NCBI GenBank assembly: GCA_904419525.1
Contig: CAJFRT010000005.1
Span: 1 to 64,000, forward strand
DNA from: Candidatus Gallimonas merdae
GTDB lineage: Bacteria > Bacillota > Clostridia > Christensenellales > Borkfalkiaceae
DNA length: 64,000 bases
Direction of reading: 5' to 3'
The notes beneath the pieces are model-generated. The model saw nothing but the letters and a program-made list of their open reading frames with translations. It was not told the DNA's origin and ran no database searches. Positions 14,824-42,283 of this stretch are shown here, in pieces; position 1 is the first letter of the stretch; each line of letters opens with the position of its first letter. A program made the translations under genes and the position numbers.

Positions 14824-17457
14824 ATGGAACAGTACGGCAGAAGCAAACAAGAGGTTCTGGAGCTTACAAAGAGCGGCGAAGGCGGGCTTACTTCCGCGGA
14901 GGCGGAAAAACGGCTTGCGCAAAACGGGCGGAATGTGCTGCAGGAGGGGAAGAAGCGGAGCAAACTCCTGCTCTTTTTGGCGCAGTTTGCTGACCTCATG
15001 ACCATCATTCTCATCCTTGCCGCGGCGCTCTCCGCCGTGCTTGCCTTCGTAACGGGCGACAGGACGGAACTTGCCGATACGGGCATTCTCCTATTTGTCA
15101 TTCTTCTGAATGCCGTTGTCGGCTTTTTGCAGCAATACCGCGCGGACGCGGCCATCGAAAAACTCAAAAAGCTCTCCGCGTGCGAGGCGAAAGCCGTACG
15201 CGACGGCAAGGTGGTAAAGCTGGACGCCGAAACGCTCGTGGTGGGCGACGTCATCGAGCTGGAAGAGGGCGACCGGATCCCCGCGGACTGCCGCATTCTG
15301 CATGCGGAAAATTTTCGCTGCGACGAATCGTCGCTGACGGGAGAGAGCAGACCCGCCAAAAAATACGACTGCGTCGTCACGCGTTCCGCACTCGCCGTGC
15401 GCGCGAATACGGCGCATTTCGGCACGTTCTGCGTCAAGGGCCGGGCGCGGTGCGTCGTCACCGCCTGCGGTATGGACACCGAAATGGGCAAGATCGCCCG
15501 CCTTCTGCACAAGAGCAAGCCTGCTCCCGCGCCCCTCGACAAGACGGTCGCAAAGCTCGGAAAGGTGATCACCGTCACGGTGCTCTGCGTGGCGCTCGTG
15601 CTGTTTGCGGGTTCGCTGATCGCCGGAAGGGTGAGCTTTCTGGAGAGCGTGATGAGCGCGGTCGCCGTGGCCGTCGCCGCCATTCCGGAGGGCATGGGCG
15701 CGGTCGTCACCGTGATCCTGGCGCTCGGCGTGCAGCGCATGGCCTCCTCGCGCGCCGTCATGCGCCGTCTCGGCGCGGTGGAAAGTCTGGGCGGGTGCAG
15801 CGTGATCTGTTCGGACAAGACGGGCACCCTCACCGAAAACAGAATGACGGTGGAGGCGATCTGCACCGATTTTGCCGAACCCATGTCCGCGGAAGAGCGC
15901 TATACGGGCACCATGTCCGAAAGGGAGCTGCTGCGGTGTATGCGCATCTGCCACACGGTCAAGGGCGGCGCGGGCGCATACGTGGGGGATCCGACGGAGG
16001 TCGCGCTCGTGGAGTATGCCGACCGCATCGGCTTTTCCTGTGACTTTGAACAGCTGGGCGGCGTTCCCTTTTCTTCCGAGCGGAAGATGATGAGCGTCTT
16101 TGCACGCACGCAGGAGGGGCGCCGGCTGTACGTCAAGGGCGGCGCCGACGTGCTGCTTGCAAAATGTACGCGGATCCTGACCGACGCGGGGGAGCGCACC
16201 ATCACGGAGGCCGACCGCGCAAAGGTCCGCGCGCGCGTGTCGGCCTATGCCGGGCGCGCCATGCGCGTGCTCGGATTTGCCTGCGGGGACTCCGAGCGGG
16301 AAGAAGGGCTTGTGTTCGTGGGGCTTGCGGCCATGCTCGACCCGCCCAAGCAGGGCGTGAAAGAGGCGGTCGCCGCCTGCCGCCGCGCGGGCGTCAGAAC
16401 GGTGATGATCACGGGGGACGCACCCGAAACGGCGCTCGCCATCGCTGCGCGGCTCGGCATCGCCAAACATCTTTCGCAGGTCGTGACGGGCGAGGAACTC
16501 GACGCCATGGGGGAAGAGGAGCTCTCCCGCCGCGCCGCAAAGTATGCCGTGTATGCGCGGGTCTCCCCCGGCCATAAACAGCAGATCGTGCGCGCCCTGC
16601 AGCGCGCGGGCGAGGTCGTCGCCATGACGGGGGACGGTGTCAACGATGCGCCGGCGCTCAAATCCGCCGACGTGGGCGTGGCGATGGGCTCGGGGACGGA
16701 CGTCACCAAAAACGCCGCCGACGTAGTGCTCACCGACGACGATTTTTCCACCATGGTGCGCGCGGTGGAGGAGGGGCGCAACGTCTTTTTCAACATCAAA
16801 AAGACGATCTCCTTTTTCCTGTCCACCAACTTTGCCGAGGTGCTCTCGGTGTTCATCGTCACGCTCTTTCTTTGGCGGTATGACTTCCTCACGTCCACGC
16901 AGCTGCTCTGGGTCAATCTGATCACCGATTCCCTGCCCGTTCTCGCGCTCGGCATGGAACGCACGGAGGGCGCCATGGACCGTCCGCCCGTCTCCGACAA
17001 GGAGATCTTCTCCCCGCGTGCGATCTGCTCCATGCTGTTTTTCGGGGTGATGCTCGCTTCGGTCGTCATTGCGCTCTTCTGCGCCTTCCTGCATTTTTAC
17101 GGGAACGGCGTTGCGACGACGGCGGCGTTTCTGACGCTCTCCCTGTCCGAGCTCCTGCACGTGTTCAACGTGCGCGCCGAGGGAACGCGAAAAAAACTGC
17201 GCGACTGGTTCTCCAATCGCGCGCTGCTCGTCACCGTGGCGGTGGGCGTCGTCCTCAACGTCATGCTCGTTCTGTCGCCCGCCCTGTGCACCGCGTTCCG
17301 CCTGACGCCCCTCACGGGCGTGCAGTGGCTGTGGGTCGCGCTGTGTTCGCTCTTTGTCTTTCCGCTCGGAGCGGGCTACCGCGTGCTCATGCGCCGCCTC
17401 TCGCGTATGCGGCTCAATAGGCGCAGAACGTATATTCCCGTGCGCGGAAACGGCTGA
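14824..17457 (+). CDS. cation-transporting P-type ATPase (Ca2+-type)
   Basis: CSDKTGTLTENRMT, TGDAPETA, TGDGVNDAPALKSADVGVAMG, IPEGM motifs. Confidence 0.92.
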   Translation: MEQYGRSKQEVLELTKSGEGGLTSAEAEKRLAQNGRNVLQEGKKRSKLLLFLAQFADLMTIILILAAALSAVLAFVTGDRTELADTGILLFVILLNAVVGFLQQYRADAAIEKLKKLSACEAKAVRDGKVVKLDAETLVVGDVIELEEGDRIPADCRILHAENFRCDESSLTGESRPAKKYDCVVTRSALAVRANTAHFGTFCVKGRARCVVTACGMDTEMGKIARLLHKSKPAPAPLDKTVAKLGKVITVTVLCVALVLFAGSLIAGRVSFLESVMSAVAVAVAAIPEGMGAVVTVILALGVQRMASSRAVMRRLGAVESLGGCSVICSDKTGTLTENRMTVEAICTDFAEPMSAEERYTGTMSERELLRCMRICHTVKGGAGAYVGDPTEVALVEYADRIGFSCDFEQLGGVPFSSERKMMSVFARTQEGRRLYVKGGADVLLAKCTRILTDAGERTITEADRAKVRARVSAYAGRAMRVLGFACGDSEREEGLVFVGLAAMLDPPKQGVKEAVAACRRAGVRTVMITGDAPETALAIAARLGIAKHLSQVVTGEELDAMGEEELSRRAAKYAVYARVSPGHKQQIVRALQRAGEVVAMTGDGVNDAPALKSADVGVAMGSGTDVTKNAADVVLTDDDFSTMVRAVEEGRNVFFNIKKTISFFLSTNFAEVLSVFIVTLFLWRYDFLTSTQLLWVNLITDSLPVLALGMERTEGAMDRPPVSDKEIFSPRAICSMLFFGVMLASVVIALFCAFLHFYGNGVATTAAFLTLSLSELLHVFNVRAEGTRKKLRDWFSNRALLVTVAVGVVLNVMLVLSPALCTAFRLTPLTGVQWLWVALCSLFVFPLGAGYRVLMRRLSRMRLNRRRTYIPVRGNG

Positions 17458-37649: not shown

Positions 37650-37657
37650 GGATCGGC

Positions 37658-37686
37658 GCGCTCCGCCGCGGGCGGAGCGCGCTTTT
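37658..37686 (+). terminator. Rho-independent terminator
   Basis: GCGCTCCGCC-gcg-GGCGGAGCGC-GCTTTT. Confidence 0.65.
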
Positions 37687-37737
37687 ACATTTTTTTAACA
37701 AATTTTCAACATTTCGCAAACATGACGGGTGTAAAAT
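37684..37737 (+). promoter_or_regulatory. phased PhoP-box-like repeats plus -10 (TAAAAT) upstream of the response regulator
   Basis: TTTACA(37684) TTAACA(37695) TCAACA(37706) CAAACA(37717), each 11 bp apart; -10 at 37732. Confidence 0.65.
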
Positions 37738-37767: not shown

Positions 37768-38439
37768 ATGATCACGATTCTTGTGGCGGAGGACGACAGG
37801 GCGCTGAATAAGCTCGTCTGCACGGCGCTGGAGGGGAGCGGCTACCGGGCGGTCTCCTGTCCGGACGGCCTGCAGGCGCTTGCCGCGTTTGAAGAAAACG
37901 GTGCGGATATGCTCGTCACCGACATCATGATGCCCGGCCTCGACGGATTCGGGCTGGCGGAGCGTGTGCGCGAGAGCGACAAAAAGATCCCCATTCTGTT
38001 CATGACCGCGCTCGACGACAAGCCCGCCAAACTGCGCGGGTATGCGCTCGGCGCGGACGACTATGTCGTCAAGCCGTTTGATCCCGATATCCTGCTCCTG
38101 CGCGTCGGGGCGCTTCTGCGGCGGGCCAACATCGAGCGCAGCCGCACGCTTACGGCGGGGGATCTCGTCATGAATCAGGACGAGCACACGGCCTACGTCG
38201 GCGGCGAGGAGCTTCCGCTCACCGTGCGCGAGTTCGATCTGCTGTTCAAGCTCCTCTCTTTCCCGCGGCGCACCTTCACGCGCGCCCAGCTCATGGATGA
38301 ATTCTGGGATTACGATTCCTCCGCGACGTCGCGCACGGTGGACGTGTACATGTCCAAACTGCGCGAAAAGACGGCACACTGCACGGGGTTTGAGATCGTC
38401 ACCGTGCACGGCCTCGGATACAAGGCGGTGCTCAGATGA
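37768..38439 (+). CDS. OmpR/PhoB-family response regulator
   Basis: VAEDDRALNKLV, DIMMPGLDGF, winged helix LTVREFDLLFKLLSFPRRTFTRAQLMDEFWDYDS. Confidence 0.93.
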   Translation: MITILVAEDDRALNKLVCTALEGSGYRAVSCPDGLQALAAFEENGADMLVTDIMMPGLDGFGLAERVRESDKKIPILFMTALDDKPAKLRGYALGADDYVVKPFDPDILLLRVGALLRRANIERSRTLTAGDLVMNQDEHTAYVGGEELPLTVREFDLLFKLLSFPRRTFTRAQLMDEFWDYDSSATSRTVDVYMSKLREKTAHCTGFEIVTVHGLGYKAVLR

Positions 38440-39515
38440 GCGGCGCGGCTGCGGGATCAAGGGGGGGCGCCCGCACCAAAAAAAGGCATGCGCTGCTGCT
38501 CCTTTTCACCTATACGCTGCGCTTTCTCACGGTCGCGCTCATTGTGACGGCGGCAGTGCTGCTGTATCATACGGCGGCCGAAGCGTTCGGAGAGGGCTCT
38601 GCGTGGACGAGCGCGGTCATGCTGGTGGCGATCGTCTTTTTGTCGCTCGCCGTTACCGTGCTCGATCTCATTCTGCACCGCGTCACAACCGAACGGCCCG
38701 TCGGCCGGATCGCCGAAAGCGCGCGCCGCATCGCCGCAGGCGATTTCACCGTGCGGCAGGAGCCGGCGCACCCGTACGGGCAGTACGATGCATATGACTG
38801 TATCCTGCTCGATCTCAACCGTGCGGCGGCCGAACTTGCGGAGTCCGAAAAGACGCGCCTTTCCTTTATTTCCAACGTCTCGCACGAACTAAAAACGCCG
38901 CTCGCCGTCATTCAGAGCTATGCGCAAACGCTTGCGCGCGGCGGGCTTGACGAAGCGACGCAGAGGGAATATCTCGGCGTGCTCAGCGACACGGCGGAGC
39001 GGCTCGCGTCGCTGGTGCACAATGTCCTGCGGCTGAACAGGCTGGAACACCGCAGGCTGCTTGCCGAGCTCTCCGATGTGCGCCTTGACGAGCAGCTCGC
39101 ACAGTGCATTCTGCAGTTCGACGACGTCATCACGCAGAAGGGGCTGGAACTTGTCTGCGATCTGGACGAGGTGATGATCCGTTCCGACGAGGGCTGCCTG
39201 GAACTGGTCTGGAACAATCTTTTGTCCAACGCCGTCAAATTTACGGACGCAGGTCAGATCGGCGTCACGCTGAAGCGGGAACAGGGCCGCGCGGTCGTCA
39301 CGGTGTCGGATACGGGCTGCGGCATGTCCGCCGAGACGGGCAAACACATCTTCGAGCAGTTCTATCAGGGCGATACGTCGCACGCGAAGGAGGGCAACGG
39401 CCTGGGTCTTGCGCTCGTCAGAAAGGTCATCGATGTGCTCGGCGGCGAGATCGCGGTGGAGAGCGAGGAGGGGAAGGGCAGCACGTTCCGCGTGACGCTT
39501 CCCGAGCGCATATGA
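38436..39515 (+). CDS. sensor histidine kinase
   Basis: Two TM, HAMP-like region, SNVSHELKTPLAVIQSYAQTL, NLLSNAVKFT, GNGLGLALVRKV. Confidence 0.93.
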   Translation: MSGAAAGSRGGARTKKRHALLLLFTYTLRFLTVALIVTAAVLLYHTAAEAFGEGSAWTSAVMLVAIVFLSLAVTVLDLILHRVTTERPVGRIAESARRIAAGDFTVRQEPAHPYGQYDAYDCILLDLNRAAAELAESEKTRLSFISNVSHELKTPLAVIQSYAQTLARGGLDEATQREYLGVLSDTAERLASLVHNVLRLNRLEHRRLLAELSDVRLDEQLAQCILQFDDVITQKGLELVCDLDEVMIRSDEGCLELVWNNLLSNAVKFTDAGQIGVTLKREQGRAVVTVSDTGCGMSAETGKHIFEQFYQGDTSHAKEGNGLGLALVRKVIDVLGGEIAVESEEGKGSTFRVTLPERI

Positions 39516-40432
39516 AGAAGCTCCCGGAATTTCTGAAAGCGCCGCCCCTCTGGTTTGCGGCCGTCGTCTGGGCGGGTGCGTTGGGCGCGGTCGCGGGGAG
39601 TCTTGTCATCGTGGTGCATGAAATCACGCAGGCGTGGGCGTATGCGGTATATGTGCTCGCCGCGGCGCTGCTCGGGTACGGCGTGTATCTCGCCGTAAAA
39701 CTTGCACCGCGCATGAAGGCGGGCATCGTCGAACGGGCGGGCCGGCATGTCTTCACAAACAACATGCTCTCCGATTACGGCTTCCGCACCATCACGTTTT
39801 CCGTGCTCTCCTTTGCGATCAATGCCGGATATGCGATCGTACATCTGGTGCTTGCGATCGTCTGGCGGTCGGTGTGGTACGGCGCGCTCGCGGGCTATTA
39901 TTTTCTGCTGAGCCTGCTGCGCGGCGGGGTGCTGCTGTGCGGCCGCAGCGCCAAAAAGCGCGCCGGAGACGACGGAGAAAAACTCCTTGCCTGTAAATGG
40001 CGCATTTTCCGCCTCTGCGGAGCGGCGCTCCTCGTGCTGGAATTCGCGCTCGCCGTATTCGTCACGCAGACCGTCCTCTTCGGCCGTCCGCTCGTCCCTT
40101 CGCTCGTCATGTCGATCGCCTCGGCCGCCTACACGTTCTACCGCGTCATTATTTCCGTCGTACAGGTGTTCCGGGTGCGCAGAATGGGGGATCCGCTCCT
40201 GCAGTCGCTGCGGAACATCAACCTGTCCAACGCGCTCGTTTCGCTGTTCGCTCTGCAGATCTCGCTCGTCGCCGCAAACGGCGGGGCGGACGAGAGCATG
40301 CGCGTGATGAATATCGTCACGGGGTTTGCGGTCTGTGCGCTGACGATCGCGCTCGGGGCCTATATGATCATCAGGGCGAGCACAAAACTCGCCGGCATGA
40401 AAAAGGAGAGGGAGGCGTTTCCCGATGAGTGA
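39512..40432 (+). CDS. multi-pass membrane protein of unknown function
   Basis: 306 aa, about seven hydrophobic helices; ATGA overlap with the kinase. Confidence 0.75.
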   Translation: MKKLPEFLKAPPLWFAAVVWAGALGAVAGSLVIVVHEITQAWAYAVYVLAAALLGYGVYLAVKLAPRMKAGIVERAGRHVFTNNMLSDYGFRTITFSVLSFAINAGYAIVHLVLAIVWRSVWYGALAGYYFLLSLLRGGVLLCGRSAKKRAGDDGEKLLACKWRIFRLCGAALLVLEFALAVFVTQTVLFGRPLVPSLVMSIASAAYTFYRVIISVVQVFRVRRMGDPLLQSLRNINLSNALVSLFALQISLVAANGGADESMRVMNIVTGFAVCALTIALGAYMIIRASTKLAGMKKEREAFPDE

Positions 40433-40808
40433 GAAAAAATTCAGTTATACGTACAGTGCGCCGACGGAGGAAGAGCGGCGGGAGATCGAGAGCATCCGCT
40501 CGGAATACAGCCGCGACGAACGGTCGGAAAAACTCGAACGTCTGCGCCGTCTGAATGCCCGCGTGAAGAACGTCTCCATGTGCGTCGCGCTGACGCTCGG
40601 CATTGCCGGGCTGCTCGTGTTCGGCCTCGGCATGGCGATGATCCTCGAATGGGGGATCCTTGTCGGAGGGGTTGCGGTCGCGGCGGTCGGGGCTTTGCCC
40701 ATGGCGGGGGCCGCGCCCGCATATAATCTTGTCCTGCGGCACGAAAAGCAAAAATACGGGTCGGAGATCGTGCGCCTTTCAGAGGAACTTCTCGGCGAAG
40801 AGGCGTGA
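40425..40808 (+). CDS. small two-TM protein, paralog of the 41835 product
   Basis: Hydrophilic coiled N-terminus, two TM, C-terminal KQKYGSEIVRLSEELL; overlaps the upstream gene. Confidence 0.75.
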   Translation: MSEKKFSYTYSAPTEEERREIESIRSEYSRDERSEKLERLRRLNARVKNVSMCVALTLGIAGLLVFGLGMAMILEWGILVGGVAVAAVGALPMAGAAPAYNLVLRHEKQKYGSEIVRLSEELLGEEA

Positions 40809-40916
40809 CGCTTCTCCCTTTTTCACGCAATTTTTACCCATTTCACGATTATCCGTCCGTCCGGGCGGGTATTTTCATAGTGAGACCGGAACGAACCGGG
40901 CACAAAGGGGAAAACG

Positions 40917-41681
40917 ATGAAAGAAGACGACGAAGAATTTTTGCAGGGCGCCGCGCTGCCGCTCGGCGCGCTCTCGGCTGCCGATCTGTACGACAGAACG
41001 AAAAAGATGATGTGGTCTGCCGTGCGCTACAAGGAGATGCGCATGGAATACGCCTGCGCGCTCAAAGAGATCCGGACAAAGTTCGATGTTCTGAACACCG
41101 AATTCAACGTCAGGGAGAGCCGCAATCCCATCGCATCGATCACGACGCGGCTGAAGAGCACGGAGAGCATTGCCAAAAAGCTCATCGGAAGAAATCTTCC
41201 GCTGACGCTTGACAGCATGGAAAAGAACATCTTCGATATTGCCGGCGTCCGCGTCGTCTGCTCCTATATTGACGATATCTATCAGATCGCCGATGCCTTT
41301 TTAAGGCAGGACGACATCAGGCTGATCGCCAGAAAGGACTATATCGAGGAGCCCAAGCCGAACGGGTACAGAAGCCTGCACCTGATCGTCAGCGTCCCCG
41401 TATTCTTTGCGGAAAAACGCAAGGAGGTAAACGCCGAGGTGCAGATCCGCACGATCGCCATGGACTTCTGGGCCAGCCTTGAACATCAGATGAAATACAA
41501 GCGCAGCATTCCCGATCAGCAAGAGATCTCGGAAGGGCTCCGCGGCTGTGCCGATGTGATCGCGCGCACCGACCGGGAGATGCTCGCCCTGCGCCGGAGG
41601 ATCGAGGCCGCGGAAGATCTCCCTTCCGAGGACGATGAGCTGTTCGACCGGCTCAGAAAACTGGATATGCAGATCGGATAG
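40917..41681 (+). CDS. RelA/SpoT-domain GTP pyrophosphokinase (small alarmone synthetase-like)
   Basis: NPIASITTRLKSTESIAKKL, DIAGVRVVCSYIDDIYQIADAF, KPNGYRSLHLIV, VQIRTIAMDFWASLEHQMKYK. Confidence 0.9.
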   Translation: MKEDDEEFLQGAALPLGALSAADLYDRTKKMMWSAVRYKEMRMEYACALKEIRTKFDVLNTEFNVRESRNPIASITTRLKSTESIAKKLIGRNLPLTLDSMEKNIFDIAGVRVVCSYIDDIYQIADAFLRQDDIRLIARKDYIEEPKPNGYRSLHLIVSVPVFFAEKRKEVNAEVQIRTIAMDFWASLEHQMKYKRSIPDQQEISEGLRGCADVIARTDREMLALRRRIEAAEDLPSEDDELFDRLRKLDMQIG

Positions 41682-41728
41682 GCACACGGCCTGTCCCGGA
41701 AACGCCCGCATGTTGCTGCATGCGGGCG

Positions 41729-41804
41729 TTTACATTTCTTTTACAAACAAGTAACGTTTTCTTTACAAATCATCAAACTTTCAGAAACATCGCCGCTGTA
41801 TGAT
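41729..41804 (+). promoter_or_regulatory. phased PhoP-box-like repeats plus -10 (TATGAT) upstream of the 118-aa TM protein
   Basis: TTTACA(41729) TTTACA(41740) GTAACG(41751) TTTACA(41762) TCAAAC(41773) GAAACA(41784), each 11 bp apart; -10 at 41799. Confidence 0.65.
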
Positions 41805-41834: not shown

Positions 41835-42191
41835 ATGAACATGGAACAGGAAAAGCAGTTTGCACGGCAGGTGCGCGCGGAGTACGCGCCCGGGAGCGAG
41901 GAGGAGGGAAAGCTCGAACAGCTCAAAAAGCTCGACCGGGCCGCGCGCCGGCCCGCGGAGATCTTTGCCTATACGTTCGGCATCGTCGGGGCGCTCGTGC
42001 TCGGGGTCGGCATGTGCCTTGCGATGGAGGTGATCGGCAGCATGATGCCGCTCGGCATCGTCATCGGCGTTGTGGGCATTGCGATGGTCACGGCCAATTA
42101 TTTTCTCTATCGGGCGATCCTGCGTTCGCGCAAGAAGAAATATGCAAAAGAGATCGTGTCGCTCAGCGACGAACTTCTGAAAAACGAATAA
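41835..42191 (+). CDS. small two-TM protein, paralog of the 40425 product
   Basis: 118 aa; KLEQLKKLDRAAR...two TM...KKKYAKEIVSLSDELL; GAGGAGG SD. Confidence 0.75.
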   Translation: MNMEQEKQFARQVRAEYAPGSEEEGKLEQLKKLDRAARRPAEIFAYTFGIVGALVLGVGMCLAMEVIGSMMPLGIVIGVVGIAMVTANYFLYRAILRSRKKKYAKEIVSLSDELLKNE

Positions 42192-42244: not shown

Positions 42245-42283
42245 AAAGGGCGCCCGCCGCAGTTTCTGCGGCGGGCGCCCTTT
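42245..42283. terminator. bidirectional terminator
   Basis: AAAGGGCGCCCGCCGCA-gtttc-TGCGGCGGGCGCCCTTT between convergent genes. Confidence 0.8.

Follow-up and report, generated by a model that had tools for sequence, protein, structure and literature searches.

The locus studied here raises a simple question: two promoters of one two-component operon carry the same phased direct repeats at the same distance from their -10 elements, and which protein reads them? The DNA comes from Candidatus Gallimonas merdae (assembly GCA_904419525.1, 2.08 Mb, 92.6% complete; contig CAJFRT010000005.1, positions 1-64,000, forward strand), and the window hereafter means these 64,000 nucleotides as a whole. P1 denotes the promoter before the response regulator gene RR3, and P2 the promoter before the DUFB gene (Table 1). 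A literature search found no paper on the RR3 operon.

Two phased arrays at a two-component operon

The product of RR3 scores over the cut-off for both Pfam PF00072 and PF00486, and the kinase encoded at 38436 has a short extracytoplasmic loop. DUFB, when compared with Pfam and NCBIfam, gave no match over the cut-off. Both promoters directly follow an intrinsic terminator, P1 the one at 37655-37683 and P2 the one at 41700-41731.

Table 1. Coordinates of the features of the RR3 locus, numbered from the first letter of the window
Feature	Position	Strand	Remark
Intrinsic terminator of the glycoside hydrolase gene upstream of P1	37655-37683	+	T-tract merges into P1 half-site 1
P1 array, 4 half-sites 11 bp apart: TTTACA, TTAACA, TCAACA, CAAACA	37684-37722	+	kept in orthologs
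P1 -10, TAAAAT	37732-37737	+	15 bp from last half-site start; no -35
Response regulator RR3, receiver and Trans_reg_C winged helix; proposed activator	37768-38439	+	recognition helix SRTVDVYMSKLREK
Sensor histidine kinase: two TM segments, short loop, weak HAMP, HisKA, HATPase_c	38436-39515	+	
MEM306, multi-TM membrane protein, family unassigned	39512-40432	+	conserved in operon
DUFA, small membrane protein, paralog of DUFB	40425-40808	+	
Small RelA_SpoT-domain GTP pyrophosphokinase (YjbM-like)	40917-41681	+	present in few orthologous operons
Intrinsic terminator closing the first transcription unit	41700-41731	+	tail overlaps P2 half-site 1
P2 array, 6 half-sites 11 bp apart: TTTACA, TTTACA, GTAACG, TTTACA, TCAAAC, GAAACA	41729-41789	+	
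P2 -10, TATGAT	41799-41804	+	15 bp from last half-site start; no -35
DUFB, small two-TM membrane protein, P2-driven gene	41835-42191	+	
GC-rich hairpin between A and T runs, probable bidirectional terminator past DUFB	42245-42283	.	from the sequence; not flagged by the terminator scan

An earlier note on this DNA had described the P2 half-sites as starting at 41729, 41740, 41751, 41762, 41773 and 41784, in exact 11-bp steps and with three perfect TTTACA units, and rechecking confirmed each position, together with those of P1 (37684, 37695, 37706 and 37717, with the -10 at 37732). The identical spacing that it had reported for the two promoters is equally correct: the AAACA cores at 41785 and 37718 each start 14 bp before their own -10, which is 15 bp when counted from the start of the last half-site. 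The P2 units are of unequal quality in this genome, since the one at 41773 matches TTTACA at only 2/6 letters and those at 41751 and 41784 at 3/6; comparison with the orthologs nevertheless indicates that these three are weak yet real half-sites.

For P1 and P2 alike, the score of four units at period 11 was equalled by 0/4000 dinucleotide-preserving shuffles of the intergenic stretch. When both strands of the 64-kb window were scanned, P1 and P2 were the top two four-unit arrays of period 11, and other periods gave almost nothing. In the entire 2.08-Mb genome the exact pair TTWACA-N5-TTWACA occurs four times, and two of these are at P1 and P2.

Conservation, register and array length

A scan of GTDB genomes for RR3 gave 63 orthologous loci at about 59% identity or above. 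A few are fragmentary, and they come from Candidatus Gallimonas, from Borkfalkia and from related Clostridia known as MAGs. The gene order RR-HK-MEM306-DUFA-DUFB is retained in most of these loci, and both the P1-type and the P2-type promoter carry arrays in most of the roughly 60 orthologous operons. No array lies directly before the regulator gene in four orthologs (L108, L081, L091 and L110); in L108, where a gene has been added upstream of the regulator, an array was sought before that gene too and none was found.

All counts of this section are taken over related species and are not independent draws. TTWACA-like sites lie 11 bp apart 80 times before the regulator gene (3.7 in shuffles) and 66 times before DUFB (4.4 in shuffles), with further sharp peaks at 22 and 33 bp. 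The arrays also keep a fixed register with the promoter. With the -10 called independently of the array, 101/138 half-sites of the DUFB promoters fall in phase 4 modulo 11 relative to it, the other phases holding 1-10; for the regulator promoters the figure is 98/198, against 3-16 in the other phases. The -35 element, in turn, is absent, its matches lying below the shuffled level (1.96 vs 2.59 and 1.62 vs 2.53).

These last observations bear on the direction of control. The half-sites cover the -35 region, a position from which repression would be possible as well, and the local regulator might be thought to shut off its own operon. We regard such autorepression as very improbable: the orthologs have no -35 boxes, the arrays end 9 bp short of the -10, as fits activation, and occlusion needs no fixed helical phase with the -10.

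Array length varies in whole units. Arrays before the regulator gene have four half-sites, and those before DUFB have four in 10 species, six in 22 and five once, so that 32/33 scored arrays contain four or six; four more DUFB arrays were left unscored owing to a differing -10 call or an unclear array. The step from four to six amounts to whole dimer units, and the regulator tree requires several independent switches between the two lengths. Moreover, strength is graded along the array: the mean half-site match is about 3.5/6 beside the -10 and climbs distally to about 6, against 0.8-2.6 in a control shifted by 5 bp, and the strongest pair is the one farthest upstream.

Could the arrays be nothing but phased T-tracts, which bend the DNA intrinsically or stimulate transcription in the manner of an UP element? 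Their spacers are rich in T and A, their period is nearly helical, and the first TTTACA of each array lies in or overlaps a terminator T-tract, so that part of the T-richness at both promoters has a second cause. The C at position 5 of the half-site is retained in 50-51/57 cases in the distal pair before the regulator gene and in 33-36/37 at two positions before DUFB, where it is the most constant letter of the strong sites, and this constancy, seen at nearly every strong site, argues for sequence recognition by a protein rather than for bending. Furthermore, several spacers hold G or C, the -35 is missing, and the arrays are limited to one operon instead of being spread over strong promoters. 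An effect of T-tracts as such appears highly unlikely.

Which OmpR-type regulator reads the arrays

The genome holds only three OmpR-type regulators, RR1, RR2 and RR3. RR2 is PhoB-like and lies in the pst-phoU operon, and its identity with RR3 is 30%. The pstS promoter (contig C2, locus L172) reads TTTACA-N5-GTGACA-N5-GTGCGG-N5-ATTACA-N9-TATCAT, with the period of 11 bp and the 15-bp distance from its -10 that characterise P1 and P2; together with three further promoters in the genome, it has their period and distance and a different third half-site. Such pstS-class promoters most likely belong to RR2.

This qualifies an argument of the earlier note, which had taken the shared geometry as a strong sign of one activator for both promoters, with the local response regulator as the simplest candidate. 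Naming the activator by geometry alone was rejected, because pstS and other promoters share this period and distance, which are thus common to at least two regulators. Activation of both by the local regulator is still the best-supported reading, on other grounds: the arrays keep their register across about 60 species, strict matches in RR3-carrying genomes of the genus are confined to its two promoters, and the half-sites differ in clades with a different recognition helix.

It is the letters of the half-sites that would separate RR3-class from PhoB-like-class sites. The third half-site is a GTG unit in the phosphate class and TTAGCA or TTWACR in the P1/P2 class, whose arrays end in a weak GNAANA site. 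The half-site sequence also changes along with the recognition helix, a pattern that is suggestive and covers few clades: VYM[SA]KLREK of RR3 goes with TTTACA/TTAACA arrays, VH[MI]TNLRQK of its relatives with a TTAACA-N5-TTAACR pair, and VCIAELRKK of a further clade with CTTACA repeats; the other OmpR neighbours showed no arrays.

The distribution within the genus was followed with the strict pattern TTWACA-N5-TTWACA-N5-TTWRCR in 103 genomes. Of its 13 matches, 11 fall in genomes that carry RR3, all 11 before RR3 or DUFB, and the -10 is missing from the expected register at the two in genomes without RR3. Genomes with a strict match number 9/22 with RR3 and 2/81 without it (Fisher p = 8e-6), a comparison that is partly trivial since the arrays sit inside the operon and are lost together with it. 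The informative part of this search is that no third site of such strictness occurs. DUFB-like genes without an adjoining RR3 (L067 and L069-L073) have no arrays, which we do not count as strong evidence because they are distant paralogs, with about 35-43% identity.

Activation of P1 and P2 by RR2, alone or with RR3, would place the operon in the phosphate regulon. The shared period and spacing of the pstS promoter speak for it, as does the presence of pstS-class sites before two short transcripts in tandem and before the gene of a membrane protein; and cross-binding of RR2 and RR3 is possible because RR2 has the same period and distance and partly overlapping half-sites. We nevertheless consider this explanation unlikely. 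The two classes differ in the third half-site and in the weak GNAANA end, the two regulators are only 30% identical, and RR2-like regulators are present in genomes without RR3, where the two matches mentioned above leave strict P1/P2-class arrays nearly absent. RR3 remains our preferred reader of P1 and P2.

Other period-11 sites in the genome were considered as added RR3 targets and rejected. Those at C9:15136, C9:15319 and C6:58046 are all of the GTG, phosphate-like class, the register of C9:39328 does not match, and C3:113445 lies in reverse orientation upstream of pfkA, directly before a terminator. Some of these sites are observations in their own right. The C9 pair (15136-15163 and 15319-15346; L023, L147 and L167) consists of two tandem phosphate-class arrays about 180 bp apart, each reading TTTACA, GTTACA, GTGnnn, TTTACA, with the -10 a further 9 bp on. 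After the first array comes a stretch of about 110 nt that has no obvious gene and a terminator at its end; the tandem transcripts are candidates for small RNAs belonging to the phosphate regulon, and a search of Rfam with the extra loci, these arrays included, gave no match. Phosphate-like arrays also precede a membrane protein gene (C6:58046, L146) and a secreted protein gene (C9:51147, L148), the latter at a differing distance to the -10. At C3:113445-113483 (L005), beside the terminator, there are four phased TGTAAA-type units, which could be a WalR-like or a phosphate-class site.

The remaining regulator, RR1, has a promoter of its own with the repeat TTCACG-N5-TTCACG. Similar TTCACG-type repeats, partly conserved in L075, stand in the window at 40828-40855, ahead of the RelA_SpoT gene that starts at 40917; this pyrophosphokinase gene may be transcribed from a regulated promoter of its own and answer to RR1 instead. 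L075 has the gene at the same place in its operon, and L103, L104 and L117 carry additional copies within the operon or close to it; found in only few orthologous loci, the gene is accessory to the operon. In streptococci, relPRS-type operons combine a two-component system with a small alarmone synthetase. The present locus resembles them in having a small RelA_SpoT synthetase within a two-component operon, and differs in that so few orthologs share it.

Regulator domains at the locus, phased 11-bp half-sites upstream of the -10 and a weak or absent -35 are all found here, and we file the RR3 system with the known OmpR/PhoB direct-repeat kind, as an ortholog of neither PhoB/PhoP, CiaR nor WalR. 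The B. subtilis PhoP box consists of four TTWACA-like repeats. With E. coli PhoB and B. subtilis PhoP, whose boxes are 11-bp direct repeats (PMC4415409), RR3 shares the OmpR-family winged helix, the head-to-tail arrangement of the repeats and the lack of a -35. Unlike them, it does not stand beside pst genes, the pst/phoU neighbourhood being held by the separate RR2 with its own half-site class, and it scores 168 bits against a PhoB equivalog cut-off of 296; orthology was rejected on this score and the lack of pst/phoU linkage. The WalR box is TGTWAH-N5-TGTWAH. The reverse complement of TTTACA-N5-TTTACA, TGTAAA-N5-TGTAAA, fits this box, but the RR3 arrays have the opposite orientation to the promoter, and RR3, whose 131 bits fall short of the YycF cut-off of 340, was not accepted as a WalR (YycF) ortholog. 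Finally, streptococcal CiaR reads NTTAAG-N5-TTTAAG, followed ten bases on by the -10, and its recognition helix VVEVYVSKVRKKL is close to that of RR3, TVDVYMSKLREKT (PMC3091779). A CiaR site requires TTTAAG with an invariant final G (PMC3091779), whereas the half-sites here end in CA, not AG; membership was rejected on this point. The RR3 arrays also have four to six units, CiaR sites two, and the operon partners are others.

A proposed two-promoter regulon and its meaning

It is probable, in our view, that RR3 works both promoters, and that P1 and P2 serve a single two-component operon as sigma-70 promoters of class II type that depend on an activator. Most likely, as far as sequence comparison can tell, the operon's own response regulator switches on itself and the small membrane protein DUFB. 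RR3, presumably when phosphorylated, would bind in head-to-tail dimers, each on a pair of TTWACA half-sites one helical turn apart, with two dimer sites at P1 and three at P2. The distal pair, as the strongest, would be loaded first, and the bound RR3 would then fill the weak pair at the usual place of the -35 and touch RNA polymerase at the -10. P1 would provide positive autoregulation of RR-HK-MEM306-DUFA, and possibly of the pyrophosphokinase gene too, and P2 a separate DUFB output past the intrinsic terminator, probably stronger or more cooperative. The short-loop kinase and the small membrane proteins suggest an envelope stress signal.

The broader picture, which we put forward tentatively and with somewhat less than even confidence, is that of a regulon both compact and self-contained, in a group of uncultured clostridia. 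It would comprise one OmpR-type regulator and exactly two target promoters, with arrays that evolve by whole dimer units (four or six half-sites, in 22-bp steps) under a fixed strength gradient, and array length would set the relative output, or the threshold, of DUFB versus the sensing operon. The approximately 60 natural variants of both promoters amount to a ready-made phasing experiment, in which one helical phase is kept and length changes by two units each time, and hierarchical dimer loading on direct-repeat arrays becomes directly testable. The analysis tells RR3 sites apart from those of a PhoB-like regulator with the same geometry, and it names DUFB as a probable target gene of an unstudied two-component system of gut Clostridia, known here from MAGs only.
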